This document shows, piece by piece, positions 5,781 through 19,355 of a stretch of 64,000 bases of DNA. The stretch spans positions 1,024,501-1,088,500 of the forward strand of contig NZ_CP045429.1 in the NCBI RefSeq assembly GCF_005886805.2, given 5' to 3'. The DNA is from Pseudoalteromonas rubra. GTDB lineage: Bacteria; Pseudomonadota; Gammaproteobacteria; Enterobacterales; Alteromonadaceae. The notes under the pieces were generated by a model. It was given only the letters and a program-made list of their open reading frames with translations, searched no databases and was not told the DNA's origin. Position 1 is the stretch's first letter; every line of letters begins with the position of its first letter. The position numbers were made by a program, and so were the translations under genes.

Positions 5781-7694
5781 ATGCTAGAAAAGATTAGAGA
5801 AGGCTCACAAGGCCTGGCAGCCAAAATTATTCTTGGTGTAGTGATCTTGTCTTTTGCGTTGGCAGGGATCGGTGGTTACCTAGGTCAAACCACAGAGCAA
5901 GCCGTAGCAGAAGTAAACGGAGTCAAGATAACGCAAATGGAATTTTCCCGCGCCTATGAAAATGAGCGTGCACGCCTTGAGCGTCAGTTTGGCGAATATT
6001 TCACACAAATCTCAGCAGATCCGGCATATATGGCTCAGATCCGCAGTGGTGTTATTGACCGTCTGGTACAACAAGAACTACAAAACCAGTTAGCCATTGA
6101 ATTAGGGCTGAGAGTCAGTGATGAGCAAGTTAAGGAAGCTATTTTTGAACTGCCTTACTTTCAGCTAGGTGGCGAATTCAGTAACGACAGATATTTACAG
6201 TTGATCCGCCAGATGAACTTCAAGCCTGATACGTTCCGTGAATACATGCGCGAAGAAATGACTCGTAATCAATTGGTTTCAGCGGTTGCAGGATCAGATT
6301 TTGTTTTAGATAACGAATTAAAGCAAACGTTGGCATTGCAGCAGCAAACACGTGATATTGACTACATGCTATTGAGCAAAGAGACCGTCAAAAGTGAAGT
6401 GGCTGTAACAGAAGCGGAAATTGCTGATTACTATGAGCTAAATCAGGAGCAGTTCCAGGCACCGGAGCAAATTGCTTTGCAGTACCTTGAGCTAACATCT
6501 GGCGATGTGACGCTGGATGAGCCTGTGACGGATGAACAAGTCCGCGCTTACTATGAAGAGAATCAGGCTCAGTACCTGGAAGAAGAGCGTCGTCGTGTAG
6601 CGCATATCCTGATTGAGAGTGCTGAAGATGCACAAGCGGCACAGCAAAAAGCGGAAGCTTTGTACCAGCAATTACAAGAAGGTAAAGATTTTGCTGAGCT
6701 TGCTGCAACTGAATCAGATGATGTCGCGTCTGCGGAAGTCGGTGGTGATCTGGATTGGATCGAGCGTGACATGATGGAGCCTGAGTTTGAAGAGGCTGCA
6801 TTTGCTCTCGCTAACGTCGGTGACTTCTCTCCTGTGGTTGAAACTGAGTTTGGTTTCCATATTATCCAGTTGACCGATTTACAGGCACAGCAGTCAAAAG
6901 CGTTTGAAGAAGTTGCCGTTGAGTTGCGCGCTGAGCTAGAGAACACAGCTAAAGCCAATGCATTTTATGAAAAACAATCGCAAATCGCAGAGCTGGCGTT
7001 TGAAGTGGCAGATTCATTAGAAGATGCAGCGGCTGTTGCAGATATTGAGTTGAAGAGCACTGAGTTGGTATCACGTGCGGCGCTACCTGCTCCGTTAAAT
7101 GATCCAAACATCGCTAATGCCATTTTCACACCTGAGCTAATCGAAGACCGAGTGAATTCAGAAGTGCTGGAAGCGGGGAGTGAGCATATTGTTGTTGTAC
7201 GTGTTTTGGACCATAAACCAGCCACTGTGAAGCCTTTGGAAGAGGTCACTGCGCAGATCAAAACGCGCCTTGAGAACGAAAAAGCGTCAGAGCTTATCAA
7301 AGAGAAAGCGAACACCTTGTATGCACAGCTGGAAGATGGTAAAGCACTGAGTGACATCGCAGCGGCAGAATCTACGGAAGTGAAAACGGAAGCAGCCCTG
7401 AAACGTCAGAGCTTTACTGTTGCTCCAGAAATTGTCCAACAGGCATTTAAATTGGCACACCCGGATAGCGAACAGACGCAGTCAGCTTTGGTTGAACTAA
7501 ATAGCGGTGATGCCGCGCTGTTGGTGCTGAAAGCCGTTACAGTTGCTGAGGTGACCGGTGAAGTTGAACCACAGCAGAAGCAGAATATCACTATGTCAGT
7601 GGTTAATAAGAACTTCTTAGCACTGCTTGGTGCATTGGAATCTGATGCTGAAGTAGTGCGTCCAACGCTGCAATTTAGCGACGAGATGCAGTAA
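5781..7694 (+). CDS. ppiD: Periplasmic folding chaperone PpiD (SurA/parvulin type)
   Basis: PpiD is an inner-membrane-anchored periplasmic chaperone that receives proteins leaving the Sec translocon. A single N-terminal transmembrane segment (about 15-34, IILGVVILSFALAGIGGYL) follows a short positively charged start. A SurA-N-like chaperone region comes next, then one parvulin domain at about 267-370 (from RRVAHILIES to FGFHIIQLTD), and a long C-terminal helical region. Length is 637 residues against 623 in E. coli. The start MLEKIREGSQG matches the family; a weak AGAGAT precedes it. The 330 bp upstream hold the hupB terminator and otherwise nothing I can name. This is the last conserved gene before the accessory region. 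Confidence 0.95.
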   Translation: MLEKIREGSQGLAAKIILGVVILSFALAGIGGYLGQTTEQAVAEVNGVKITQMEFSRAYENERARLERQFGEYFTQISADPAYMAQIRSGVIDRLVQQELQNQLAIELGLRVSDEQVKEAIFELPYFQLGGEFSNDRYLQLIRQMNFKPDTFREYMREEMTRNQLVSAVAGSDFVLDNELKQTLALQQQTRDIDYMLLSKETVKSEVAVTEAEIADYYELNQEQFQAPEQIALQYLELTSGDVTLDEPVTDEQVRAYYEENQAQYLEEERRRVAHILIESAEDAQAAQQKAEALYQQLQEGKDFAELAATESDDVASAEVGGDLDWIERDMMEPEFEEAAFALANVGDFSPVVETEFGFHIIQLTDLQAQQSKAFEEVAVELRAELENTAKANAFYEKQSQIAELAFEVADSLEDAAAVADIELKSTELVSRAALPAPLNDPNIANAIFTPELIEDRVNSEVLEAGSEHIVVVRVLDHKPATVKPLEEVTAQIKTRLENEKASELIKEKANTLYAQLEDGKALSDIAAAESTEVKTEAALKRQSFTVAPEIVQQAFKLAHPDSEQTQSALVELNSGDAALLVLKAVTVAEVTGEVEPQQKQNITMSVVNKNFLALLGALESDAEVVRPTLQFSDEMQ

Positions 7695-7772
7695 TCACAG
7701 TATCCGCTTACTGGTTGTGAGTGCCAGAGCTTAGCGTTAGTACTTACAATTAAGCAGCGACTGCTAAATGAA

Positions 7773-7808
7773 TAATCCGATATCAGTGTCCTGATATCGG
7801 ATTTTTTT
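7773..7808 (+). terminator. Rho-independent terminator after ppiD
   Basis: ATCCGATATCAG (7775-7786), loop TGTC, and CTGATATCGGAT (7791-7802) followed by a run of T to 7808. It is a perfect 12-bp stem. It marks the end of the conserved block. Confidence 0.93.
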
Positions 7809-7863
7809 ATATCTTTTGTCTTGCAAACCAAACCCCATGGTGACATTGCTAAAGTGGTCATTT

Positions 7864-8057
7864 ATATCAATTTCACTTAATACCTGGCCAATTTGAAGGA
7901 GTCGGTATGACGCTAACGGCGTTAAAAATTTCTCATTTAGAATCTTTGCCTAAGGTATGAACTCGCAAATTTTCGCCTCACCGACATATATGTAGGCGGT
8001 GCTATTGACCCTATTTTCTCGCCTCAAAATAGCGCACTCAATTAAGAAAATTGGTAT
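7864..8057. mobile_element. MITE-like element, copy 1 (about 194 bp)
   Basis: The terminal inverted repeats read ATATCAATTTCACTTAAT on the left and, reverse-complemented, ATACCAATTTTCTTAATTG on the right. The interior shares long stretches with copy 2 at 11531-11751, including ATGACGCTAACGGCGTTAAA and a TATTTT...AAAATA hairpin near the right end. It contains no transposase, so it would need one supplied in trans. I do not see a clean target-site duplication. Confidence 0.75.
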
Positions 8058-8524
8058 CACTTGCTTAGAGGGCAGCTCCAGCCGTTTTTGAGGTGATTCG
8101 AGTGCGCTGACATTGCGTTGAGCAGATTCGTTTTCTTTCGCTTTCTGTGCACCATTTTAAAGCAATATACATCCACGTAGTCATTCAGGTGAGCCTACAG
8201 TGTCGTTGTATTAGCACTAACAGGTGCCTTACCTGTAATCACTAAGCAGTGTTTTGACGTAAAAAACGTACTGGATTTAGCCTTAATTACTCTGCAAACC
8301 TATGCTGAGTGCTGTGAAACAGCGGCTTTCTTAAATGTTATGTTTTTTCAAACTGGTATCGTTAGTTTTATTGCTATTTAAATCAGGTGTTTATGTCTAA
8401 TTATTATGAAAAACGATAAGTTTTGATAATTAGTGTATTTCTGGGGTATTCGCTAAGGTTAAACATGTCACCAGGCAGGTGAACACGATACAACTAATTT
8501 GCTATAACAACAGGAAATCTGGTC
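8058..8524. other. AT-rich intergenic stretch before peptide 1
   Basis: I find no convincing gene here. Short frames are interrupted and have no ribosome-binding site. It probably contains the promoter for the peptide gene at 8525, but no strong sigma70 pair stands out. Confidence 0.5.
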
Positions 8525-8671
8525 ATGTTTAAGTTGAAAGCCAAAAAGTTAAAAAACCTTACTACAAAAGTGCTTCTTGCTCCTGGTAAAACACAGCTTG
8601 TCGCTGGCGGGGCTGCTCAACAGATAGATACACATAGCATCACACAAATAGACACGACTACAAACCCCTGA
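8525..8671 (+). CDS. Gly-Gly motif small peptide 1 (putative secreted/RiPP-type precursor)
   Basis: A 48-codon gene preceded by AGGAAA. The Lys-rich N-terminus (MFKLKAKKLKNLTTK) leads to a VAGG motif with Gly28-Gly29, followed by a 19-residue C-terminal part that contains DTHSITQ and ends TTTNP. A second gene at 10155 has the same length, the same Gly-Gly position and the same DTHSITQ. That conservation supports real coding and a leader-core design, as in double-glycine peptides or RiPP precursors. The Thr/Ser-rich core has no Cys, so lanthionine rings are not expected. No modifying enzyme or peptidase-containing ABC transporter is nearby. Function is unknown. Confidence 0.7.
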   Translation: MFKLKAKKLKNLTTKVLLAPGKTQLVAGGAAQQIDTHSITQIDTTTNP

Positions 8672-9021
8672 GTGTGGCACCTAGTGGTGCATGTTACGGG
8701 TTTAGCAATGCCGGTCATCGTCTTGCCTTAACCTCTCTAACGGTGCACCTGATACATTGGTACGCAGTTTAAAGAAGCTAAAATAATGCATAAACTTCGT
8801 TTTCCCTTATGTTCGATCGTCTGGGCCTGTCACCTGAGGGAATACCTTATACGTATCGTCCGAACTACCCAGGCTGTCAAACAAGCCGATAAGCCACGAC
8901 TCGATAGTTGATTGAACACAAGTGTATTCAGGTTCAATAGCATTCCTTTTGGTACTGATAAGGACAACCAAATACACATAGTCCTTCACTGATATCTGGA
9001 CTCATCCGGCACATCTGAACG
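8672..9021. other. Region between peptide 1 and tandem array, no clear gene
   Basis: There is a small GCACC/GGTGC hairpin just after the peptide stop. An unsupported 41-codon frame starts at 8786 (MHKLRFPLCSIVWACHL). No domain is recognisable; it may be decayed sequence. Confidence 0.4.
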
Positions 9022-9435
9022 CACTCTAATAGCCGACCTCAATCCAATAGTCGGCTTCAATCTTACAGCTGACCTCAATCTAACAGCTGACCTCAATCTA
9101 ACAGCTGACCTCAATCTAACAGCTGACCTCAATCTAACAGCTGACCTCAATCTAACAGCTGACCTCAATCCAATAGTCGGCTTCAATCTAACAGCCAACC
9201 CCAATCTAACAGCCAACCCCAATCTAACAGCCAACTTCAATCTAATAGCCAACCTCAATCTAATAGCCAACCTCAATCTAATAGCCAACCTCAATCTAAC
9301 AGCCAACCTCAATCTAACAGCCAACCTCAATCTAACAGCCAACCTCAATCTAACAGCCAACCTCAATCCAATAGCCAACCTCAATCTAACAGCCAACCTC
9401 AATCCGGTAGTCGATCTCAATCCGGTAGTCGATCT
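9022..9435. repeat. 18-bp tandem repeat array, about 23 units
   Basis: The consensus is CAATCTAACAGCCAACCT, with units starting at 9040 and every 18 bases to 9418, plus a diverged unit at 9022-9039. Variants are clustered: GCTGACCT units first (about 9058-9165), then GCCAACCCC, then GCCAACCT, and two GTAGTCGATCT units at the end. The 18-bp period keeps frames open, giving NLTANL and QSNSQP hexapeptides on + and LRLAVR on -, but none has a credible start. It is best described as a minisatellite likely to vary in copy number. Confidence 0.9.
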
Positions 9436-10154
9436 CAATCCGACATCTGGACCCGGTCCACCATTTGGGCGCCGAATTTGGGTTTGCGTTGTAGGAAAAC
9501 TTGAATGAGCCTGCTGTGCAAAAGGAAGTGCAGCACTGACCGGGTGAGCAGAGAAGTACTTTGTTAGTCAAGTCAGGCGGGACATTGCGCTCCAAATCTT
9601 GTGTGCCTCTTTGATTTCATTAACTGCCTGGATCTTTGAGACGAAGTGGTGTCTGGTCTTTGTTGGGCTTGGGCTTGGGTTTGTGAAGCAGGATAAACCG
9701 GCTGATGGAATAAGTGATGTGTTTTGCAATATATTTCAGTATTAGGCCAATATGATAAATTAAAGCCTGTTTAACTCTTTTTTTTAATGTCGGCAAATGT
9801 TTTCTTTTGGTTCTTGCTCTGAGTTTTTTCAAGATGTTTTTCACTTCCATTTCGCCAGGTTGTAGCAAATTTCATTTTTAACGTGTCTGTTTTCTTTGTT
9901 TTTCTTGCGTGATTTGGCTCACTTTTCTTGTTCTTTTTTGTATGTCGGTCAATACAAAGCTTATCATGTGAAAAGGTCTGGGTAATGTGTTTTTATATTC
10001 ATAAAAAACAATGGTTTAGTGTGTAATGTTATCTTCAAGAATAACGTTTCATAACTAGGTTTTTTAGCATCTCTGGTCAATGATAGTTGCATCACCACAA
10101 CGGTGTTTAACATTTAAAAATTAATTGAATAAACATTAAATAGAGATTGTCACG
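9436..10154. other. AT-rich intergenic region before peptide 2
   Basis: The region has long T-rich stretches and holds at most the small minus-strand frame at 9620-9850. The last 100 bases presumably carry the promoter for the peptide gene at 10155. No further feature is supported. Confidence 0.4.
9620..9850 (-). CDS. Possible small basic protein (weak)
   Basis: A 76-codon minus-strand frame from an ATG at 9850 (MEVKNILKKLRARTKRKH...). It has a very basic N-terminal half, a hydrophobic stretch (ALIYHIGLILKYIAKHI) and a KPKPKPN tail. There is no good ribosome-binding site. The AT-rich context makes a chance frame plausible, and I recognise no family. It is listed because no other gene occupies this stretch. 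Confidence 0.2.
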   Translation of the reverse strand: MEVKNILKKLRARTKRKHLPTLKKRVKQALIYHIGLILKYIAKHITYSISRFILLHKPKPKPNKDQTPLRLKDPGS

Positions 10155-10301
10155 ATGCTTAAACTTAAAACAAAAAAACTAAAAGAACTTACTAATAAAG
10201 AAATTAAAGATAATCGCCAGACTAAGTTTATTGCAGGTGGTACAGATACGCATAGTATTACTCAGGTAGGATTTATTAACCCTAAAAACATCACTGGTTA
10301 A
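10155..10301 (+). CDS. Gly-Gly motif small peptide 2 (paralogue of peptide 1)
   Basis: A 48-codon gene starting MLKLKTKKLKELTNK, with FIAGG (Gly28-Gly29) followed directly by TDTHSITQ and the tail INPKNITG. It aligns without gaps to peptide 1 through the Lys-rich leader and the Gly-Gly. The DTHSITQ block is shifted by a few residues within the 19-residue C-terminal part. Only a weak AGAGA lies upstream. The lipoyl-like gene at 10337 begins 35 bp later with its own AGGAG, and a terminator follows that gene, so the two are probably one transcript. Role inferred: leader peptide plus core released after Gly-Gly. Confidence 0.72.
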   Translation: MLKLKTKKLKELTNKEIKDNRQTKFIAGGTDTHSITQVGFINPKNITG

Positions 10302-10336
10302 TTAGAATATAAATAGTAATAGGAGTTGATAAATTG

Positions 10337-10891
10337 ATGGGATCCTATCTTGTGTTGGCAATGGGGGCCGGATTGCAGTCTGTTTCAGGTAATCTTGTGT
10401 TGCAAGAGCCCGCCAGTGAGTATCATTACTCCAGGGAAACTGGCCGAGTTGTAGAATTGGCTATTAAGGTTGGTAGTGAAGTAGCCAAGAAAAAAGTGAT
10501 GCTTGAGTATGTCTCTGAGGACAGCAAAAAAACGAAAACACTTATTTCTAACGAAAACGGGTATGTTGACTATGTAAACCCGAATGCCGTGCCCGGCAAG
10601 GTGTTCGCGCCTGGCGAGTTGTTGTTGAGAGTACAAAGCAACCGGGTTTTTGGCGCCCATTACTTCGAGCAAAAAGAAATTGAAAGTATGGAGTTTGCTC
10701 TGGAGATACAAGCAAAAGGGCGTCTGTGGTTGTGCTCAGATGCAAGACCTATTGAGGTTAGGGTGGATGATATTGCAAAAAACAGCCTGTTGGTCTCGAT
10801 GAAGCTAAAAAAAGAAGAGTATAGTCAGCTACAGCATACTATCACGGAGGGCAGTATTGCACTTCATCAGTCAATGCAGGCTTGTTTATAA
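10337..10891 (+). CDS. Biotinyl/lipoyl-like (HlyD-type) domain protein
   Basis: 184 residues from the ATG at 10337; an in-frame TTG at 10334 is also possible, and AGGAG is at 10321-10325. Residues of about 30-105 resemble the barrel-sandwich hybrid of membrane fusion proteins: GRVVELAIKVGSEVAKKKVML, then SNENGYVDYVN and PGELLLRVQ, with the usual two half-motifs. No lipoyl Lys motif (DK), no signal peptide and no transmembrane segment are clear, so it is not a complete HlyD protein. It sits 35 bp after peptide 2, suggesting a role in handling or exporting that peptide. That link is inference. Confidence 0.55.
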   Translation: MGSYLVLAMGAGLQSVSGNLVLQEPASEYHYSRETGRVVELAIKVGSEVAKKKVMLEYVSEDSKKTKTLISNENGYVDYVNPNAVPGKVFAPGELLLRVQSNRVFGAHYFEQKEIESMEFALEIQAKGRLWLCSDARPIEVRVDDIAKNSLLVSMKLKKEEYSQLQHTITEGSIALHQSMQACL

Positions 10892-10989
10892 CCCCCATTT
10901 TTACCTCCAGCATTCTGTGAGGCGGTCAGTGCTTGCTAGCATGCCATGTTCAAAGTCATTGTGTCATGTACATTCGTACTTCTCATTTG

Positions 10990-11022
10990 GGTCCACTTTC
11001 AAGTAGTGGATCTTTTTCCTTT
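10990..11022 (+). terminator. Probable terminator after the peptide 2 unit
   Basis: TCCACT (10992-10997) and AGTGGA (11005-11010) pair around a 7-base loop. TCTTTTTCCTTTTT follows. It lies 100 bp after the lipoyl-like gene. Confidence 0.6.
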
Positions 11023-11311
11023 TTGAAAAACTTCACACAAATTTGAATGGACTGAATCGGCGGTGTGACCCGTTAGTGTCCAAACTCCGAACGTTTTTGC
11101 CTGTTAAAAGATTACAGCAGGTAACCTGGTACCGATGTTTGTCAGGTGCTATTCTCTGTTATCCAGTTGCGCCACCTAGTTAACTGAACTAAACATCTAA
11201 CTAAGTCACAGTCATTGAATCCTTTCGGTTTGTGTTTTTGTCTTTTGAAACGCGGATTGTTAGGTATGTCGTTGGCCTGTTATCCATAGGGTGCCATTAG
11301 TCTTTTGATGT

Positions 11312-11563
11312 GTGTTTGCGTGGCTGACTTATGTTTGCACTGTACAACTTTTCCTGGTGCTGTTTACACTACCTCGCCCTGGCCAGATTGAATTGCCACT
11401 ATTCAGTGTCAATCTAGCTATCACATCTGCCGCCAGCGTGATTCTCTTTCTTGCCGCAATCAAAATTCGGTCTGTTTATTTGACCATGCACGACAGCACA
11501 TTTTCGATAGCTGTACGTACTCAAAAGGTTATACCAATTTCACTTAATACCTGTTCTATTTGA
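11312..11563 (+). pseudogene. Remnant of a small membrane protein, overrun by MITE copy 2
   Basis: An 83-codon frame from a GTG. It has two hydrophobic stretches (TYVCTVQLFLVLFTL and AITSAASVILFLAAI) that look like membrane segments. Its last ten or so codons (from IPISLN) lie inside the MITE-like element starting at 11531, so the original 3' end appears lost. There is no clear ribosome-binding site. It could instead be a chance frame. The rest of 10892-11530 holds only the terminator described above. Confidence 0.25.
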
Positions 11564-11751
11564 AAGAGCAAATATGACGCTAACGGCGTTAAAAATTTCT
11601 CATTTAGGATCTTTACCTAAGGTATAAGTTCGCAAATTTTTGCCTCGCCTATATGGACGATGGTGCCTCAACGATAGCAGGGCGCGGGTGCTGTGTTATC
11701 GACCTTATTTTCTCGCTTCAAAATAGAGCACTTAATTAAGTAAATTGGTAT
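11531..11751. mobile_element. MITE-like element, copy 2 (about 221 bp)
   Basis: The left end is ATACCAATTTCACTTAAT; the right end reverse-complements to ATACCAATTTACTTAATTAA. It shares most of its interior with copy 1 at 7864-8057. About 27 bp extra in the middle (around CAACGATAGCAGGGCGCGGG) accounts for the greater length. Both copies have the same orientation, 3.7 kb apart, and flank the peptide region. Confidence 0.78.
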
Positions 11752-12022
11752 TAGAGTTTATTGCACAATTTGGATGCATATGAAATGGGATAAATTAGTA
11801 GTAAATAAGCTCTCACATCGAGTCGTTACGGGATCCTCTGCGGGGTGATATCAATCAATATATAGCCAGTATTTCACCATAATAATTGGTATTAAAGTGT
11901 TGATTTTATTGGTTATGTTTTTATTTTTCGAGATTTGATTGCACGCGTTTGCTGGGGCACTATGAGTTCCATCAAAACAATAAACACGCTTTGCTTACTT
12001 GGCGCAAATTGAGGAGCTAACA

Positions 12023-12700
12023 ATGCAACAAAATACGACCCTTGGCCTGTTTGACACGCAGCACGAAATTAAACAGATGATTACTAAATTTGAGGAAGTA
12101 AACATCGCTGAAGAGCTAACAAGTACATTGAAGTCTATCTCAAAAGAGTCAGGCTACAATTGTCTGGGCTTTATCGATTTTTGCCCGGTATCTGCGTCCT
12201 CATACGAAGAAAAAGTTTATGGTGAGATTTCTGCCGAGTTGGCAGAGGAAATGTCAGACACTGCGATCTTTGAACATTGTAAGTCAGGTATTCGATTGTT
12301 GCCGTTGCACAGTATACTCAATCACAGCAATCAGAAAGGCCAGGTGTATGTGATGCCTATGCGGGGTGTGACAGGCATTTATGGAGGCTTGGTATTCGAT
12401 ATCCCAGAGAGCTTTTGCCAGCAGAAGAGTATTGAGTTTGTTGACTGGTGCTGGACGATTATCTCTCCCTATTTGCTGCAGGCTGCGTTGCGCTGCAGGG
12501 ATAAAAAGTTACATATTACAAAACGCGAAAAAGACTGCTTAATGTGGGCTTGTGAAGGTAAAACGTCTTGGGAAATCAGCCAGATACTTGGTATCTCTGA
12601 GCGCACGGTTAATTTTCATCTGTCTAACTGTATTGTGAAAACAGATAGTACAAACAGGCAGCAGGCGATCGTAAAGTGTATTATCAACAATTTGATCTAA
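12023..12700 (+). CDS. LuxR-type transcriptional regulator (solo, atypical sensor domain)
   Basis: 225 residues from the ATG at 12023, preceded by GAGGAG; a TTG at 11999 is in frame but lies before that site. The last 64 residues form a LuxR/GerE helix-turn-helix: TKREKDCLMWACEGKTSWEI through ISERTVNFHLSN. The first 160 residues are in the position of an autoinducer-binding domain but lack the usual W...Y...DP pattern, so acyl-homoserine-lactone binding is doubtful. No luxI-type gene is nearby. It stands alone between MITE copy 2 and a convergent CadC-like gene. It could control the NRPS operon or the peptides; this is inference. The 271 bp upstream are AT-rich with no named site. Confidence 0.8.
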   Translation: MQQNTTLGLFDTQHEIKQMITKFEEVNIAEELTSTLKSISKESGYNCLGFIDFCPVSASSYEEKVYGEISAELAEEMSDTAIFEHCKSGIRLLPLHSILNHSNQKGQVYVMPMRGVTGIYGGLVFDIPESFCQQKSIEFVDWCWTIISPYLLQAALRCRDKKLHITKREKDCLMWACEGKTSWEISQILGISERTVNFHLSNCIVKTDSTNRQQAIVKCIINNLI

Positions 12701-12748
12701 TCACGATGACTGACGTGCTTTTCGGTGTTGTATATCAGCGTTCATGGT

Positions 12749-12767
12749 TGGGGAGGTGTCCTCCCCA
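12749..12767. other. Hairpin between convergent luxR-type and cadC-type genes
   Basis: TGGGGAGG and CCTCCCCA form a perfect 8-bp GC-rich stem with a TGT loop, placed between two converging stop codons. Neither side has a T run, so it is a candidate bidirectional 3'-end structure rather than a proven terminator. Confidence 0.5.
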
Positions 12768-12777
12768 GTACGCCAGA

Positions 12778-14913
12778 TCATTCAGACTGGGTGATTTCTG
12801 CTTTGACCAGCTGGTTTTCAACGACTTCAATAATGTCGAGGTAAAGCGCATTGGTTTGTTGAGAAAAGCTGATCCTGTCTATGACATAGCTGGAACTGTC
12901 AATTTTGTATAATTCCTGCCTGGGCTCGGTATGGCTGAAATTAATCTTAAAGACGGTCTCACCGTCGGAGTGATACAAGGACCCATTGCCCGCAGCAATC
13001 GAGTGTTTATATTTGGCTTTTGACAGCTCAATTCTGTCAGTCTTTTCACCCGTATTGATATTGTATAAAGACACTTCATCATGTGATGATAAACTGGCAT
13101 AAAACTCACTATCAAGCTGCCCAAACCACAGTGGGCGTTCAATGGGTAATGGAATGCTCTTATCCGAATCGAGAGAGTGCATAAAGGCTTTTCCTCTCAA
13201 TGTTCTTGCATCCACAACGGTATAACCGATGCTATTTTCTTCAAGGTACTCAGCCGACACTATGGTGCCATCAACCTTGATAGAGCCAGTAAGCGTCAGG
13301 GTCTTACTATCATAGGTTTCGAGCCTATCATTGTAGTGGAGCAATAGTTCTTGTCTTTGCGCGCTATAATGAATTGATTCATAAGTCGACGCCTCAAGTG
13401 CAAGCGGTTCATGCTGACCATCAGGTAAAGCACGATAAATGGAACGCAGTCCACCTTCCTGACGCAAAAAAATCACACTGTCTTCAAAGTCAGTAGCTTG
13501 TACGTCATCATACTCACTTTTAACTAAAGGCTGCAGTTCGCCGCCCTCGGGGCTTAAGGTATATATGTCCTGTAAAAAGGGATAAGTCACTGCCAGTAAG
13601 GCGTCGTGGGACAGTGGCTGATTACTGGCATATTTAACATTATTTGGCAATTTCGCCGCTGAGGTAATGGCTTTCTTATCCAGCGAATAGGTAAACAAAA
13701 TATTCTCAACATTATCTAGCCAAATCAAAGAATTAATTTTCTTCTCGTAGGATAAAGTCCAGATCCGGTTGTTGGTGTCATGTAGTTTAACCTGGTTTCC
13801 ACCATCCAGGTCTGTCATGTAGAGTTCACTGCCCTGATAGTGATGCCTTTCAAAAATAATAACTTCCATATCAGGGATATAAGTCAAAAACCTATCTCCA
13901 TATGAATTCAAATTTGGTGATGTAATTTGAAATTCCTGGCCTGTTTCTATATCACGGCTGGCAAGTGCTGCGAGTTCATCCCTGTCGCGATAACCGCTCT
14001 TTGAATAAATGAGTCTGCCATCGCTGACACCTGCACCTGTGAAACCTTGCAAGCTACAGTCAAACAGGTATTTATTGGTACCGTCAAAACTGGTGTTTAT
14101 CAGCCATACTTCGCATTGTTCATTGTTAATGGCCCGATAGAAGACCTTATTGGAATCTGCTGACCAGCCGATAGGGAAGTAGTTAGTTCCTTCTTCTGCA
14201 AGGCGTTTTTCATGGCCTGTTTGTAGCGTTTTGACCACCAAAGAATAATTCTGACTATTCTTTTGAATAATAGAGAAGGCAACGAAGTTCTTATTGGGCG
14301 AGATATTTGGTCTGGTATACCTGCCATTGACCCAGGACAGTACTGTTTCCTGCACTTGCTTTTCTATGGGGCTAACAGAGGCGTCACTCAGCGCTGTGTC
14401 CTGGTTAATAAATGCCAGACTAATGCTGGCTGCTAGAGTACTGATGACCGCAGCAAAAATCCACGGGGCCTTTTTCCGCTTTACTGATCGTTCGGCTGGT
14501 GTCACTTTTGTGTTTAATTCGGTTGTAACCGCAGGGCTGGGTTTAGATTGGTCAACTGATTCCGTTTTGTGGTATTCAACAAACGGTTCAATGGCTAAGC
14601 TGTAACCCTTTCTATAGTGAGTTTTAACTATGATGCCCTTTTGGTTCTCTGATTTCAGTGTTTTCCTGAGTTCAGAGATTGCCCGGTTTATTGCATTGTC
14701 ATCAACATATTTCTGACACCAGACATCGTCCACTAAATTTTGTCGAGTGATGATAGTATCCGAATTTAAGATCAAATAACTAATGATGCGAAACAGAAGC
14801 GGTTCGAGTTCTTTTTCGATGTCGCCGTCAGTGAGCACCTGACGCTTTGGGTCAAGTTTCCAGGATCCAAGTGTGATCGATTTAACTGTTCTAGAGAAGC
14901 TGACTTCGTTCAT
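12778..14913 (-). CDS. CadC/ToxR-like membrane transcriptional regulator with beta-propeller-like periplasmic part
   Basis: 711 residues. Residues 1-107 form an OmpR-type winged helix (LGSWKLDPKRQVLTDGD, then DDNAINRAISELRKTL and THYRKGYSL). A Pro/Thr/Lys-rich linker leads to one transmembrane segment at about 149-168 (APWIFAAVISTLAASISLAF). The remaining 540 residues are probably periplasmic and carry TolB-like beta-propeller repeats (for example RPNISPNKNFVAFS and FPIGWSADSNKVFYRA). This is one-component signalling: the propeller senses a ligand and the cytoplasmic domain binds DNA. CAGGA precedes the ATG. Many Alteromonadales carry such proteins; the target genes are unknown. Confidence 0.85.
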   Translation of the reverse strand: MNEVSFSRTVKSITLGSWKLDPKRQVLTDGDIEKELEPLLFRIISYLILNSDTIITRQNLVDDVWCQKYVDDNAINRAISELRKTLKSENQKGIIVKTHYRKGYSLAIEPFVEYHKTESVDQSKPSPAVTTELNTKVTPAERSVKRKKAPWIFAAVISTLAASISLAFINQDTALSDASVSPIEKQVQETVLSWVNGRYTRPNISPNKNFVAFSIIQKNSQNYSLVVKTLQTGHEKRLAEEGTNYFPIGWSADSNKVFYRAINNEQCEVWLINTSFDGTNKYLFDCSLQGFTGAGVSDGRLIYSKSGYRDRDELAALASRDIETGQEFQITSPNLNSYGDRFLTYIPDMEVIIFERHHYQGSELYMTDLDGGNQVKLHDTNNRIWTLSYEKKINSLIWLDNVENILFTYSLDKKAITSAAKLPNNVKYASNQPLSHDALLAVTYPFLQDIYTLSPEGGELQPLVKSEYDDVQATDFEDSVIFLRQEGGLRSIYRALPDGQHEPLALEASTYESIHYSAQRQELLLHYNDRLETYDSKTLTLTGSIKVDGTIVSAEYLEENSIGYTVVDARTLRGKAFMHSLDSDKSIPLPIERPLWFGQLDSEFYASLSSHDEVSLYNINTGEKTDRIELSKAKYKHSIAAGNGSLYHSDGETVFKINFSHTEPRQELYKIDSSSYVIDRISFSQQTNALYLDIIEVVENQLVKAEITQSE

Positions 14914-15322: not shown

Positions 15323-16417
15323 CTAACTGTCAGTTTCCTTAGTCTTACTATCCAATACCTCAATGACTTTTGCCAGGGTGTCCGTTACGGCTTTTCGATT
15401 GTCCCAGTCCACAGCTTGCCAATCTACCTCATCCACTAATTCTGTAATGTTGTGGGTCAGGAGCATTTTAATTGTTTCCACATGCTGAATGGGTTTTACC
15501 CTGAAAGCTTTTGTCTTAGGTTTGGTTGTCAATTTTTGCCCAGTGAGTTTGGCATGTATCCGTTTATTGATCTCGGCTTTGTCTGTCACGGTTAGCAGGG
15601 TTTTATCAAACTCGCTGTAATAGTCATTCTCAACCTGTTTAACGATTTTTTTAACGTTGATAAAAGGCAGCGTGACCAGCCCCTGTTCATACGCCTGAAT
15701 AACGCATTTATACCGGGTAAGCACATTGTAGTTATCAAAACTCCCCATGGAGATACCTAAGTTGGCCGCCATTTCTTTAACGGTTAGCTTTTTCTCACCG
15801 ACTTTTAATCTTGCCTGACTAAGGCTTTCCAGTTCCTGCATTGCACTGAGAAAAGCTTGCAGCTTGCCATATTGAGGCAGGTCGTCTCTGCTGGCATTCT
15901 CCTGAAATTGTTTAACTTTCGATAGCAATGGTTTGGCATCATACACTTTAAACTGGGCGCTTGAGTCATAACCATTGCTGTAAACCATGGCAAAAAATCG
16001 GCGATGTCCGGTCAGTATTTGATACTGTCCGTCCTCTAAAGGGTAGACGGTCGGCACTTGAATAACCTCGGCTACAGAGATGTTTTCGGCCAGTTCAAGC
16101 ACGGACTCTAGGGTTTGGTTCGCTTTTTTCCACTGGGCGGTGCCGTAGGCAAAGCAGTTTACAATGCAGTTCTTTCCTATTAGTACGTGGTCTTTTGCAT
16201 CATACATTTCAACTAGCTGGTTTTTGGTTAGCCAGCGTGAAGTGAATTGTCGTGCATGATCATCTTCCATGAACTTGGCTGGCAGAAATCGTGCATTGTG
16301 TGGATCAGGCGTCACAGAAGATAAGAATAAAGAGGTGTACTCAAAAGTTTCAGAATTCAGCCCTTTTCGACTGTTCACGTTAGCCAGCATCAGCTGGTCT
16401 AATTTTAGCTTATTCAT
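15323..16417 (-). CDS. ParB/RepB-like DNA-binding protein
   Basis: 364 residues. A ParB N-terminal-like domain is seen from about 35: PDPHNARFLP, then VIQVPTVYPLEDGQYQIL and the GHRR motif at 137-140 in place of the usual GERR. ENASRDDL at 173-180 matches the ParB (E/R)N-x-R-x-(D/E)L box. A helix-turn-helix follows at about 211-232 (LTVKEMAANLGISMGSFDNY). There is no ParA partner, so chromosome partitioning is unlikely. It resembles the lone ParB-like proteins of integrated elements, where they act as regulators or stability factors. It is divergent from the small gene at 16614 across about 200 bp that hold no other named feature. Confidence 0.75.
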   Translation of the reverse strand: MNKLKLDQLMLANVNSRKGLNSETFEYTSLFLSSVTPDPHNARFLPAKFMEDDHARQFTSRWLTKNQLVEMYDAKDHVLIGKNCIVNCFAYGTAQWKKANQTLESVLELAENISVAEVIQVPTVYPLEDGQYQILTGHRRFFAMVYSNGYDSSAQFKVYDAKPLLSKVKQFQENASRDDLPQYGKLQAFLSAMQELESLSQARLKVGEKKLTVKEMAANLGISMGSFDNYNVLTRYKCVIQAYEQGLVTLPFINVKKIVKQVENDYYSEFDKTLLTVTDKAEINKRIHAKLTGQKLTTKPKTKAFRVKPIQHVETIKMLLTHNITELVDEVDWQAVDWDNRKAVTDTLAKVIEVLDSKTKETDS

Positions 16418-16808: not shown

Positions 16809-16891
16809 CGATGACAGCACGCTGACGCATATCCGGTCGATGTCAGCGGAGACTCATTCCGACCTTAAACCTTGTTTTAATCAGTAGCAAT

Positions 16892-16909
16892 GATCTCATG
16901 CATGAGATC
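16892..16909. promoter_or_regulatory. 18-bp perfect palindrome in the acylase leader
   Basis: GATCTCATG/CATGAGATC, centred between 16900 and 16901 and 26 bp before the chosen acylase start. The identical 18-mer forms the core of the 32-bp palindrome at 46885-46916. It could be a dimeric-regulator operator or a dispersed palindromic repeat. Confidence 0.6.
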
Positions 16910-16934
16910 TCAAACTTCTGTTGGTAGTGAATAC

Positions 16935-19355
16935 ATGCAAATAAGAAATTGGTTTACACGACATCCTCTGTTGTGCCGGTTTGGCACCTTTATTTTGGCA
17001 CCGTCAGTACTGTGTGCTTATGTGGCATATCAGCAACAGGTCATTTCAGCTTTACCGCAAGCGGGGGCAAGTGCGGTCTCGGTTGCTGTCCAGGAGCAGG
17101 TTACGGTAACGCGCGACGCACATGGTGTGCCATATATTGATGCGGATTCAATGGCAGATGCTTATTTTGCGATGGGCTATCTGCATGCACAAGACAGGCT
17201 GTGGCAGTTAGAGTTACAACGCAGGCTCAGTGCCGGTAAGTTGAGTGAGGTGTTTGGCAAAGAGAGCCTGAACTATGACGTTTGGGTTCGCACGTTGGGG
17301 CTCTATGAGGTGGCTGAACAAAGTAAGGCTTATTTGTCTGAGCAGGCTTTGGCGTCATTGCAGTCTTATACGGCCGGGATCAATGAATTCCTGAACCAGC
17401 AACCTACACTGCCAATTGAGTTTACTATGCTCGGGATTACGCCAGCGCCATGGCGTGTTGAAGATTCACTGGCATGGATGAAAATGTTTTCTCTCAGTAT
17501 GTCGGGCAACCTGGAAGAAGAGATCCAGCGTAGTGTGGCATTAAAAACATTACCCAAAACCTTGTTCGCCGAGTTTTTCGGATCTGAACTGGTGCCGTCA
17601 GAGTCACTGGGCGAAGGGCAGGTTGCCAGCCTGTCGGGGTTACATCACACCATTAAGCAATTGGAAACCGACTATAAGATTGGCGGTAAACATATAGGCA
17701 GTAACGCTTGGGTGGTTTCTGCTGAAAAAAGTGCATCTGGCAGTGCTATCTTGGCCAATGACCCGCACCTGGGTCTGCAAATTCCCTCTTTGTGGTATGC
17801 CGTATCGCAGCAATTGCCAGACTCTCAGTTACAGGGTATGAGTTTGGTCGGGTTACCTGTCATTGTATTTGGTCAGAATAATTACATTGCCTGGGGTGGC
17901 ACCAATATGGAGGCTGACCTGCAAGATCTGATTGTGGAACAAATCCATCCGGAAGACCCCACGCTGTATCGCTACCAGCAACAGTGGCTACCTTTTACAG
18001 AGCGCACTGAATATATCAAAGTGAAAAGTGATTTTCCGAGTCTACTTAAGCCCACCTATCGGGATGTTGAACTGAAGATCAAAGAAACGCTGACCGGTCC
18101 CGTGATCAGTAAAGCCGGTTTGCCTCAGGCAGTGTCTCTGCGCTGGACGGCATTGCAGGCACAGGACACCACTTATGAAGGCTTTTTTCACATTAATCAT
18201 GCCCAGAACTGGCAGCAGTTTAAGCAGGCTGCGGATAAAATTGCATCACCCAGTCTGAATCTGTTTTATGCAGATAAGCAAGATAACATTGGTTTTACTG
18301 GCGCGGGTAATATTCCGGTTCGCGAGCGTGGCACAGGTATATTACCGACTAAACGGGGTGCTGAGGGAGATGTATGGCAAGGGTTCATTCCAAAAGATGA
18401 GATGCCGAGCGAATTCAATCCACCACGAGGTTACATCATTAATGCCAATAACCGTAATGTGGCATCGAGTTACCCTTATCATATTTCTTCCAGCTTTGCG
18501 GACCCTGCCCGTGCAGAGCGCATTGAACAGCTACTCAATACACAGCCACTGGATGTGAATTACATCAAACAGATGCAGATGGATGTAAAAGACCTGACGG
18601 TTATCAAGTTAAAGAGTGTGATGGAAACGGTCGTCGCGGAAGACCTGTGGCAGCAAGAAGCGCTTGACCATCTGAAAACCTGGCAAGGAGATGCTCCGAC
18701 CGACAGTATTGCCGCAACGATTTTTTATACCTGGGCGAGACAAATATACCGAGTCTTACTCAATGATGAGCTCATTCCTGCATGGAATGAGAAAGCGGCA
18801 ACGCGCCAGCTACTGGGTCTGCGTGGCAGAGTGAGTTACGACCAGCTGGCTGAGCTGCTGGCGCAAAACACCCCGCTATGTGACGACACCAACACGCTAG
18901 AAACAGAATCTTGTGAAGAAGTATTACTCTCAGCGCTAGACAGAACTTTAATCCTGAACAGTAAGTTACAGGGGGATGAAATTGACAACTGGCAATGGGG
19001 TAAGTTTCAGACGACTCGATACGACCATATGCCGTTTGGCAAGGTGAAGCATCTCAATAAGGTGTTCTCACGAGAGGTAGCGACCGGTGGTTCCACCAAT
19101 ACCGTTAATGTAGCGGCAGGTTTCTACGAAAAAGACAATGGCTTTATTCAGAACTATGGTGCCGGGTTCAGACAGATTATTGATTTGGGCGGACGCTATG
19201 AGTTTATGAACTCTACGGGGCAGTCTGGTCAGGTCGCCAGCGCGCATTATGACGACATGATCACTCTGTTCGCTAAGGGACAGTATGTGTCATTTGAATC
19301 ACCCACAGAGGCATCTCGCAAGCTAACGCTAACCCCGAATCAAGGGCAGGAGTAA
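16935..19355 (+). CDS. Penicillin-acylase-type Ntn hydrolase (peptidase S45 family), probable lipopeptide deacylase
   Basis: The family cleaves amide-linked acyl chains after self-processing into alpha and beta subunits. Counting from the ATG at 16935, the protein is 806 residues with an N-terminal signal or anchor (about 11-32, LLCRFGTFILAPSVLCAYVAY). The alpha region contains DAHGVPYIDADS and AYFAMGYLHAQDRLWQLE. The Gly-Ser cleavage point is at Ser256 (HIGSNAWVVS), which becomes the beta-subunit nucleophile; NDPHLGLQIPSLWY follows. In-frame ATGs at 16890 and 16902 are possible, but the first would put the palindrome inside the coding region. It leads the NRPS operon, 3 bp before the exporter. 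This suggests periplasmic removal of a fatty acid from the peptide, as PvdQ does for pyoverdine; quorum-signal acylase activity is an alternative. Confidence 0.88.
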   Translation: MQIRNWFTRHPLLCRFGTFILAPSVLCAYVAYQQQVISALPQAGASAVSVAVQEQVTVTRDAHGVPYIDADSMADAYFAMGYLHAQDRLWQLELQRRLSAGKLSEVFGKESLNYDVWVRTLGLYEVAEQSKAYLSEQALASLQSYTAGINEFLNQQPTLPIEFTMLGITPAPWRVEDSLAWMKMFSLSMSGNLEEEIQRSVALKTLPKTLFAEFFGSELVPSESLGEGQVASLSGLHHTIKQLETDYKIGGKHIGSNAWVVSAEKSASGSAILANDPHLGLQIPSLWYAVSQQLPDSQLQGMSLVGLPVIVFGQNNYIAWGGTNMEADLQDLIVEQIHPEDPTLYRYQQQWLPFTERTEYIKVKSDFPSLLKPTYRDVELKIKETLTGPVISKAGLPQAVSLRWTALQAQDTTYEGFFHINHAQNWQQFKQAADKIASPSLNLFYADKQDNIGFTGAGNIPVRERGTGILPTKRGAEGDVWQGFIPKDEMPSEFNPPRGYIINANNRNVASSYPYHISSSFADPARAERIEQLLNTQPLDVNYIKQMQMDVKDLTVIKLKSVMETVVAEDLWQQEALDHLKTWQGDAPTDSIAATIFYTWARQIYRVLLNDELIPAWNEKAATRQLLGLRGRVSYDQLAELLAQNTPLCDDTNTLETESCEEVLLSALDRTLILNSKLQGDEIDNWQWGKFQTTRYDHMPFGKVKHLNKVFSREVATGGSTNTVNVAAGFYEKDNGFIQNYGAGFRQIIDLGGRYEFMNSTGQSGQVASAHYDDMITLFAKGQYVSFESPTEASRKLTLTPNQGQE

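Follow-up and report, generated by a model that had tools for sequence, protein, structure and literature searches.

Prochlorosins and synechococsins are produced by one enzyme (ProcM or SyncM) from many precursors that can lie dispersed in the genome and have a common Gly-Gly leader and variable cores, as the available sections of PMC10783134 describe. For a group of cyanobacterial peptides whose cores vary widely and sometimes lack Cys, the name "cyanotins" has been proposed (available sections of PMC7268733). In the genus Pseudoalteromonas, PciA, a class I lanthipeptide of P. citrea, was produced in modified form in E. coli (PMC9993889, in part), and P. flavipulchra is the source of pseudorosins A-C and of the dehydratase PsfB, both mentioned in the accessible portion of PMC12819058. 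The present study concerns a 64,000-nucleotide stretch of Pseudoalteromonas rubra DNA (NZ_CP045429.1, positions 1,024,501 to 1,088,500; hereafter, the window), which holds two genes for 48-residue peptides. We propose that both are real precursors that probably belong to a class I lanthipeptide-type system of the same genome, where they would represent a distinct subclass whose cores lack Cys and carry alternating Thr (TxT peptides).

The likeness to prochlorosins lies in the arrangement, since also in P. rubra many precursors with a common Gly-Gly leader are found far from a single enzyme locus. However, the prochlorosin enzyme is a class II LanM, whereas the P. rubra genome has class I LanB and LanC instead. 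Furthermore, prochlorosin leaders are of the Nif11 type, whereas the leader of the window peptides is only about 29 residues long, rich in Lys and Leu, and without a family match. In another difference, the Cys-free members in P. rubra stand apart as a subclass that has a core motif, a partner protein, and regulators of its own. Compared by description only, PciA and the pseudorosins share the genus and the enzyme class of the P. rubra system, and the available parts of their descriptions make no mention of dispersed precursors or Cys-free TxT peptides.

The two peptide genes and their parts are located as follows.

8525..8671, forward strand: precursor peptide gene 1, an open reading frame (ORF) of 48 residues, MFKLKAKKLKNLTTKVLLAPGKTQLVAGGAAQQIDTHSITQIDTTTNP; leader-profile match 1.3e-12, with a profile that includes the gene 1 leader
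8525-8611, forward strand: leader of gene 1, ending in Gly28-Gly29; its core, AAQQIDTHSITQIDTTTNP, follows at 8612-8668, then the stop
10155..10301, forward strand: precursor peptide gene 2, an ORF of 48 residues, MLKLKTKKLKELTNKEIKDNRQTKFIAGGTDTHSITQVGFINPKNITG; leader-profile match 2.9e-15, with a profile that includes the gene 2 leader
10155-10241, forward strand: leader of gene 2; its core, TDTHSITQVGFINPKNITG, follows at 10242-10298, then the stop

The pair corresponds to C1:1.033-1.035 Mb in genome coordinates. The ORFs confirm how a first-pass annotation had described the two peptides: 48 residues each, a Lys-rich leader ending in Gly28-Gly29, and a 19-residue C-terminal part that lacks Cys and has DTHSITQ in common. 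Gly-Gly falls within residues 26-31 in four of the 248 window ORFs of 40-70 residues, and only the two genes (2/248) add to this at least six Lys in the first 15 residues. Orthologues of both genes are present in genome G007 and in Pseudoalteromonas sp. OOF1S-7 (locus L008; genome G093 is taken as OOF1S-7). Gene 1 differs from its G007 orthologue by 12 synonymous and 6 nonsynonymous changes (nonsynonymous rate, dN, 0.056; synonymous rate, dS, 0.484), and within its 19 core codons by 7 and 0, respectively. For gene 2, the counts are 5 and 1 against G007 (dN 0.009, dS 0.186) and 12 and 10 against G093 (dN 0.094, dS 0.549); the first 42 codons of gene 1 differ from G093 by 14.5 and 13.5 (dN 0.152, dS 0.87). 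With dN below dS in each comparison, both genes are under purifying selection, as fits coding constraint; the first-pass annotation had named the opposite pattern, substitutions free of such constraint, as evidence against its proposal. Orthologues, substitution pattern, and rarity among the window ORFs together rule out chance ORFs.

DTHSITQ is kept in G007, whereas both OOF1S-7 paralogues of the window peptides (L008 6666-6809 and 8001-8147) carry DTDSITQ instead. The exact motif was seen in P. rubra and G007 only, no genus-wide search having been aimed at it. Because the His-to-Asp change is present in both paralogues, i.e., in concert, it suggests either gene conversion or a binding partner common to both. 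A scan of genome contigs with gene 2 gave one locus, L008, and a protein search returned gene 2 itself and the OOF1S-7 orthologue. The latter is already a named 48-residue hypothetical protein, so that the statement that gene finders would miss these genes was only partly right. Neither peptide passes any Pfam or NCBIfam cut-off, and no family appears up to E 10, although HMMER filters drop most weak matches at that level.

The leader is not confined to the window. Searching the P. rubra genome with the gene 2 peptide gave seven matches, including leader-like ORFs elsewhere, and a leader alignment (A2) gave 31 at E≤10, of which 28 with E≤0.61 are short ORFs. Their general form is MKLxLxKKxxKxLs....L....TPx[VI]AGG; the cores after it are unrelated, and most of them contain Cys. 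A profile of 28 of these leaders (A3) has 32 matches at E≤0.01 in the same genome, a count that is partly circular because the profile was built from it. One A2 match (L048) is inside a long protein and was not counted as a peptide, and another (L049, E 6.8), which looks like a real precursor, is outside A3. The genome is thus predicted to hold about 28-32 short precursors with one common leader, scattered over its length. Across the genus, A3 matches 51 of 108 genomes at E≤0.01, with 1-69 matches in each and at least 1302 in all; these totals are lower bounds, as scoring was limited to 75 candidates in the genomes with most matches. A plasmid search gave no match, and a class-wide search found the leader in 2 of 369 genomes (G000 and G783). 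Protein searches need shared words, and six-frame genome searches recovered far more.

The enzymes that such precursors would need are present in the genome. Its single LanB (PF04738, 5.9e-134; PF14028, 7.8e-61) is at C1:4.54 Mb, with LanC (PF05147, 7.3e-38) beside it at C1:4.54 Mb. The single C39 match (1.9e-36, C1:4549652) is in a protein that unites C39, ABC_membrane, and ABC_tran domains. Together these genes form an operon, HlyD - C39-ABC - LanC - LanB, at about C1:4.543-4.551 Mb, 3.5 Mb from the window on contig coordinates. The motifs CYG and CHG of LanC, AECG of C39, and Walker A are all present. No LanB, LanC, or C39 match of the genome is inside the window; the first-pass annotation was therefore right that no maturation enzyme is nearby, although the enzymes exist elsewhere in the genome. 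Its proposal of a leader-core precursor cut after Gly-Gly gains sequence support from the leader common to about 30 dispersed putative precursors and from the position of the sole C39 match in the LanC/LanB operon. Alignments show that the leader is common to the window peptides and to precursors beside LanB. Leaders and the LanB match are no more than 5 kb apart at 10 of the 20 lan loci examined, including five (G041, G043, G014, G047, and G070) that had been picked in advance for nearby leaders. The only other LanC-domain protein found in the P. rubra genome is a RamC_N-Pkinase-LanC protein, a class III-type lanthipeptide synthetase (L014, C2:165001-184000, at 10032-12755 on the reverse strand); its neighbours include an S9 peptidase and an ABC transporter, and it represents a second, separate lanthipeptide system.

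Leader and LanB occur together. PF04738 matches 51 of the 108 Pseudoalteromonas genomes, the same 51 that match A3, and the other 57 have neither (Fisher p about 5e-32, with kinship ignored). On a tree of the Lon gene (one gene, midpoint-rooted, 81 tips from 25 of the 51 LanB-positive and 56 of the 57 LanB-negative genomes), the LanB-positive genomes make up five lineages with five Fitch changes. The independent events behind the association are therefore few, and it holds in all of them. Among 394 genomes sampled across the order, the leader is present in five, two of them Pseudoalteromonas (one being the P. rubra genome itself), and LanB in seven, which include all five leader genomes; the remaining two (G479 and G225) have much weaker LanB matches. 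In the three leader genomes of other genera (G360, G444, and G203), leaders are about 1.5-1.6 kb from the LanB match.

Gene 2 is followed by a gene that we refer to as its partner.

10337..10891, forward strand: partner gene for a membrane-fusion-protein-like product of 184 residues, with a predicted barrel-sandwich and no coiled-coil hairpin; starts 35 bases after gene 2

An alternative TTG start three bases upstream would make the product 185 residues long. Its AlphaFold2 (AF2) model (predicted local distance difference test score, pLDDT, 84.9) has fold matches to BCCP and adaptor proteins and suggests a barrel-sandwich (lipoyl-like) domain; it has no helix of four or more residues before residue 112 and hence no hairpin. 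A Cys at position 133 and a C-terminal Cys183 are each present in every alignment row that reaches them. Comparison with PDB sequences gave nothing convincing (best E 0.3), and a relation to the 180-residue protein beside the P. rubra LanB was rejected (E 56). HlyD/RND membrane-fusion proteins thus differ from the partner, which has 184 residues, no hairpin in the model, and no Pfam or NCBIfam match above cut-off, and whose gene in the window adjoins peptides, not a transporter; we call it a mini-adaptor. A protein search with the partner returned three proteins (itself, OOF1S-7, and P. rubra), and one with a 21-row alignment returned six. The genus search with the partner yielded 58 rows from 41 of the 108 genomes. 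We kept 44 rows from 35 genomes, all LanB-positive, including four weak ones (G034, G040, G046, and G107); the 14 rows dropped were frames of 391-402 residues with E 7.5e-4 to 7.5e-3. Leader peptides are close by at 28 of 30 partner loci (E<0.05), usually one to five just upstream of the partner, and the loci of G106 and G080 have no leader match at that threshold. Twenty-five of the kept rows are on the same contig as LanB, 18 of them within 30 kb of it.

The peptides at partner loci form a group of their own. Counted over the 30 partner loci L100-L129, the window's own included, with ORFs of 30-200 residues only and some leader matches partial or weak (L112 at 1065, L125, and L127), 40 of 46 unique cores are Cys-free (window gene 2 among them), whereas among the 30 cores of the P. 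rubra genome only the window pair is. Thr makes up 21.6% of residues in partner-locus cores vs 8.7% in the Cys-bearing cores of P. rubra, and a TxTxT-like pattern occurs in 36 of 46 vs 1 of 28. Besides, the residue after the conserved Thr of the leader is Lys, Gln, or Arg in 44 of 46 partner-locus precursors vs Pro in 24 of the 28 Cys-bearing ones. Core motifs at partner loci are NTDTVTQ, NTDTVTR, NTDTITQ, TNTETFTG, TNTVTG, and similar; some cores depart from the motif, e.g., the EAITHDYTSYTTG group. Given these counts and motifs, DTHSITQ is most simply explained as the local form of a motif found throughout the genus, and the two-member family envisaged by the first-pass annotation gives way to a genus-wide subclass. 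At L111, L114, and L115, some TxT precursors have three NTDTVTQ/R repeats within a single core, as if several heptapeptide copies came from one precursor. In G027, four tandem Cys-free leader peptides (L088 17725-18580) are about 7 kb from LanB, three of them with SSDTSVTNPS-like ends; the partner search found no homologue in that genome.

Since the leader is shared and the enzyme set is single, the leader would bring the peptides to LanB in trans, as with prochlorosins, and the C39-ABC/HlyD exporter would handle their release. As LanB is present and the Thr residues are conserved, LanB would dehydrate core Thr/Ser to dehydrobutyrine/dehydroalanine (Dhb/Dha) at sites of the T-D-T-V-T type, or D-T-H-S-I-T in the window pair. 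The first-pass annotation had reasoned from the missing Cys to Asp, Thr, Ser, or His chemistry; the conserved alternating Thr, as possible LanB sites, supports that direction, although not the modification itself. Without Cys, a lanthionine within the peptide is impossible, and the exporter, on cutting after Gly-Gly, would release a linear 19-residue dehydro-peptide. Therefore, we do not file these peptides as lanthipeptides in the strict sense. The mini-adaptor may aid export or bind the peptide in the envelope, and the regulators that flank the peptides, described below, may control or sense it; both are guesses.

Alternatively, the leader might be read by the C39-ABC exporter only, so that the Cys-free peptides bypass LanB and leave unmodified, like class II-type bacteriocins or ComC-like pheromones. 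We regard this as possible but doubtful. The cores without Cys would suit it, and Lys/Gln/Arg instead of Pro after the conserved Thr could mark different handling. So would the cleavage site, in part: for one C39 protease, the accessible text of PMC10885120 gives hydrophobic residues at -4, -7, and -12, and the window leaders have Ile/Val at -4 and Leu at -12 (gene 1) or Ile at -13 (gene 2), with Thr at -7. However, the Lys/Leu-rich N-terminal part is the same as in precursors beside LanB, the cores keep alternating Thr/Ser that a dehydratase could use, and genomes without LanB, both the 57 of the genus and all those of the order sample, have no leader match.

In another scenario, LanB-dehydrated peptides could react with an external thiol, for example that of the mini-adaptor Cys, of glutathione, or of a further peptide, to form an intermolecular thioether. 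The invariance of the two partner Cys would fit, and glutathione adducts on dehydrated peptides after E. coli expression are described in the available part of PMC9993889. Yet the two Cys may simply form a disulfide, and the sequences bear no sign of conjugation. We consider this fate improbable. Still less credible, and already disfavoured, is that the Cys-free members are decaying or selfish copies, dead relatives of lanthipeptide genes. Such an origin would go with the many scattered copies (1 to 69 per genome) and with the G052 partner locus (L125), where a stop codon interrupts the partner frame and the leader match is weak, but not with the purifying selection seen in the gene 1 core (7 synonymous, 0 nonsynonymous), nor with the genus-wide conservation of core motif and partner gene.

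Several observations weigh against our proposal that the pair are precursors of the LanB system. The co-occurrence of leader and LanB is based on few independent events and was assessed in the genus and order samples only, whereas G783 is a class-level leader match. No leader was found within the 36 kb examined around the P. rubra lan operon (L012 and L013), none of the A2 matches being inside the operon, and the peptide module is 3.5 Mb away. Of the 15 lan loci that had not been chosen for a nearby leader, five have one within 5 kb, and at 3 of all 20 loci no leader was found over 19 kb. Both window cores are without Cys. Six of the 46 cores at partner loci contain it. The -7 position, where the C39 rule of PMC10885120, as given in its accessible text, wants a hydrophobic residue, is Thr. 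The partner is present in 35 of the 51 LanB-positive genomes, not in all. Finally, the gene 1 leader is weakly constrained against G007 (5 synonymous and 6 nonsynonymous changes; dN 0.097, dS 0.286).

Downstream of the partner, the window has the following genes.

12023..12700, forward strand: LuxR-type transcription regulator (Pfam GerE, 1.3e-16), helix-turn-helix (HTH) at the C-terminus; module member
12778..14913, reverse strand: CadC/ToxR-type regulator (Pfam Trans_reg_C, 8e-14; NCBIfam CadC and TolB matches below cut-off); module member
15323..16417, reverse strand: ParB-N-like protein of 364 residues (Pfam ParB_N, 6.5e-4, below cut-off); a recurrent neighbour whose part in the module is uncertain

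Neighbourhoods compared at 18 of the 44 partner loci reveal a conserved module: CadC-like regulator - one to five TxT peptides - mini-adaptor - LuxR-type regulator. The CadC-like family is present at 17 of the 18 loci, the exception being the G009 locus, which stops at the partner; the LuxR-type family is at 14 and the ParB-N-like family at 6. In G032, G104, and G085, the genes are arranged as atp genes - CadC-like - peptides - partner - LuxR-type - glmU - HlyD - C39-ABC (atp, glmU, lon, hupB, and ppiD being names assigned by eye from sequences). LanC comes next after C39-ABC in G032 and G085, and the G104 stretch ends at C39-ABC. G031 is similar, but a second CadC-like gene replaces glmU. In G009, partner and peptides are beyond glmU of the lan operon, with no LuxR-type gene between. 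In G000, G007, and OOF1S-7, which represent the window's lineage, the module adjoins lon-hupB-ppiD instead. The simplest reading is that in this lineage the module moved away from the lan operon and the enzymes stayed behind. Given that the genome itself holds the LanB/LanC/C39 set and that several related species have the module next to the lan operon, the earlier designation of the pair as an orphan or new system is not supported.

The CadC-like protein has an N-terminal winged helix, a hydrophobic segment at 151-169, and a C-terminal TolB-like propeller region. Profile matches of the LuxR-type protein are to CviR, LasR, and SdiA, mostly over the HTH; its Pfam listing has no autoinducer-binding domain, and LasR chains align from about chain residue 105 onward. 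Its AF2 model (pLDDT 42) was unusable.

A signal or regulatory role for the TxT peptides is our favoured guess, because two regulators, an adaptor-like protein, a conserved core motif, and tandem copies come together here, although its probability is low. Specifically, the peptides might be a Gram-negative signal, linear and rich in Dhb, produced by the common lanthipeptide enzyme, exported by C39, handled by a dedicated hairpin-less adaptor in the envelope, and sensed by the CadC-like and/or the LuxR-type regulator. As it stands, this scenario is unlikely; it would perhaps let the signal control the genus's arsenal of scattered lanthipeptides. ComC-type pheromones of Gram-positive bacteria are similar in having a short core after a Gly-Gly leader, with C39-ABC in the genome and regulators nearby. 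However, they are sensed by the histidine kinase ComD, whereas the peptides described here have a LanB-linked leader and regulators of the CadC and LuxR types, not a histidine kinase.

A Penicillin-amidase family protein is encoded at 16890-19352 of the window, and its family recurs near the module at 3 of 17 other loci (G093, G012, and G021); some members of the penicillin-amidase superfamily degrade acyl-homoserine lactones. A repeat separates the two peptide genes.

9025..9441, no strand: 18-bp minisatellite of about 23 copies, found with TRF

There is no evidence that this minisatellite belongs to the peptide system, and the BLAST alignments of this stretch with G007 and OOF1S-7 leave it out. 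Rfam models gave nothing at gathering score over 7600-13000, and a scan of 8300-10950 gave 4 promoters vs 5.7 expected and 3 terminators vs 1.9 expected.

In the open-access literature, subscription literature being outside our scope, we found no account of Pseudoalteromonas class I precursors that are dispersed or of TxT peptides without Cys in this genus; the novelty of a dispersed class I system is not established by this. Our analysis suggests that the prochlorosin strategy, in which one promiscuous enzyme serves dozens of scattered substrates, is also used with class I LanB/LanC. Genome mining near lanB alone would miss most precursors of the P. rubra genome. The genus is marine and open to culture and editing, according to the accessible portion of PMC12819058. 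Moreover, a subclass without Cys is conserved together with a partner and regulators of its own, which raises the question of why a lanthipeptide system would keep substrates unable to form lanthionines.

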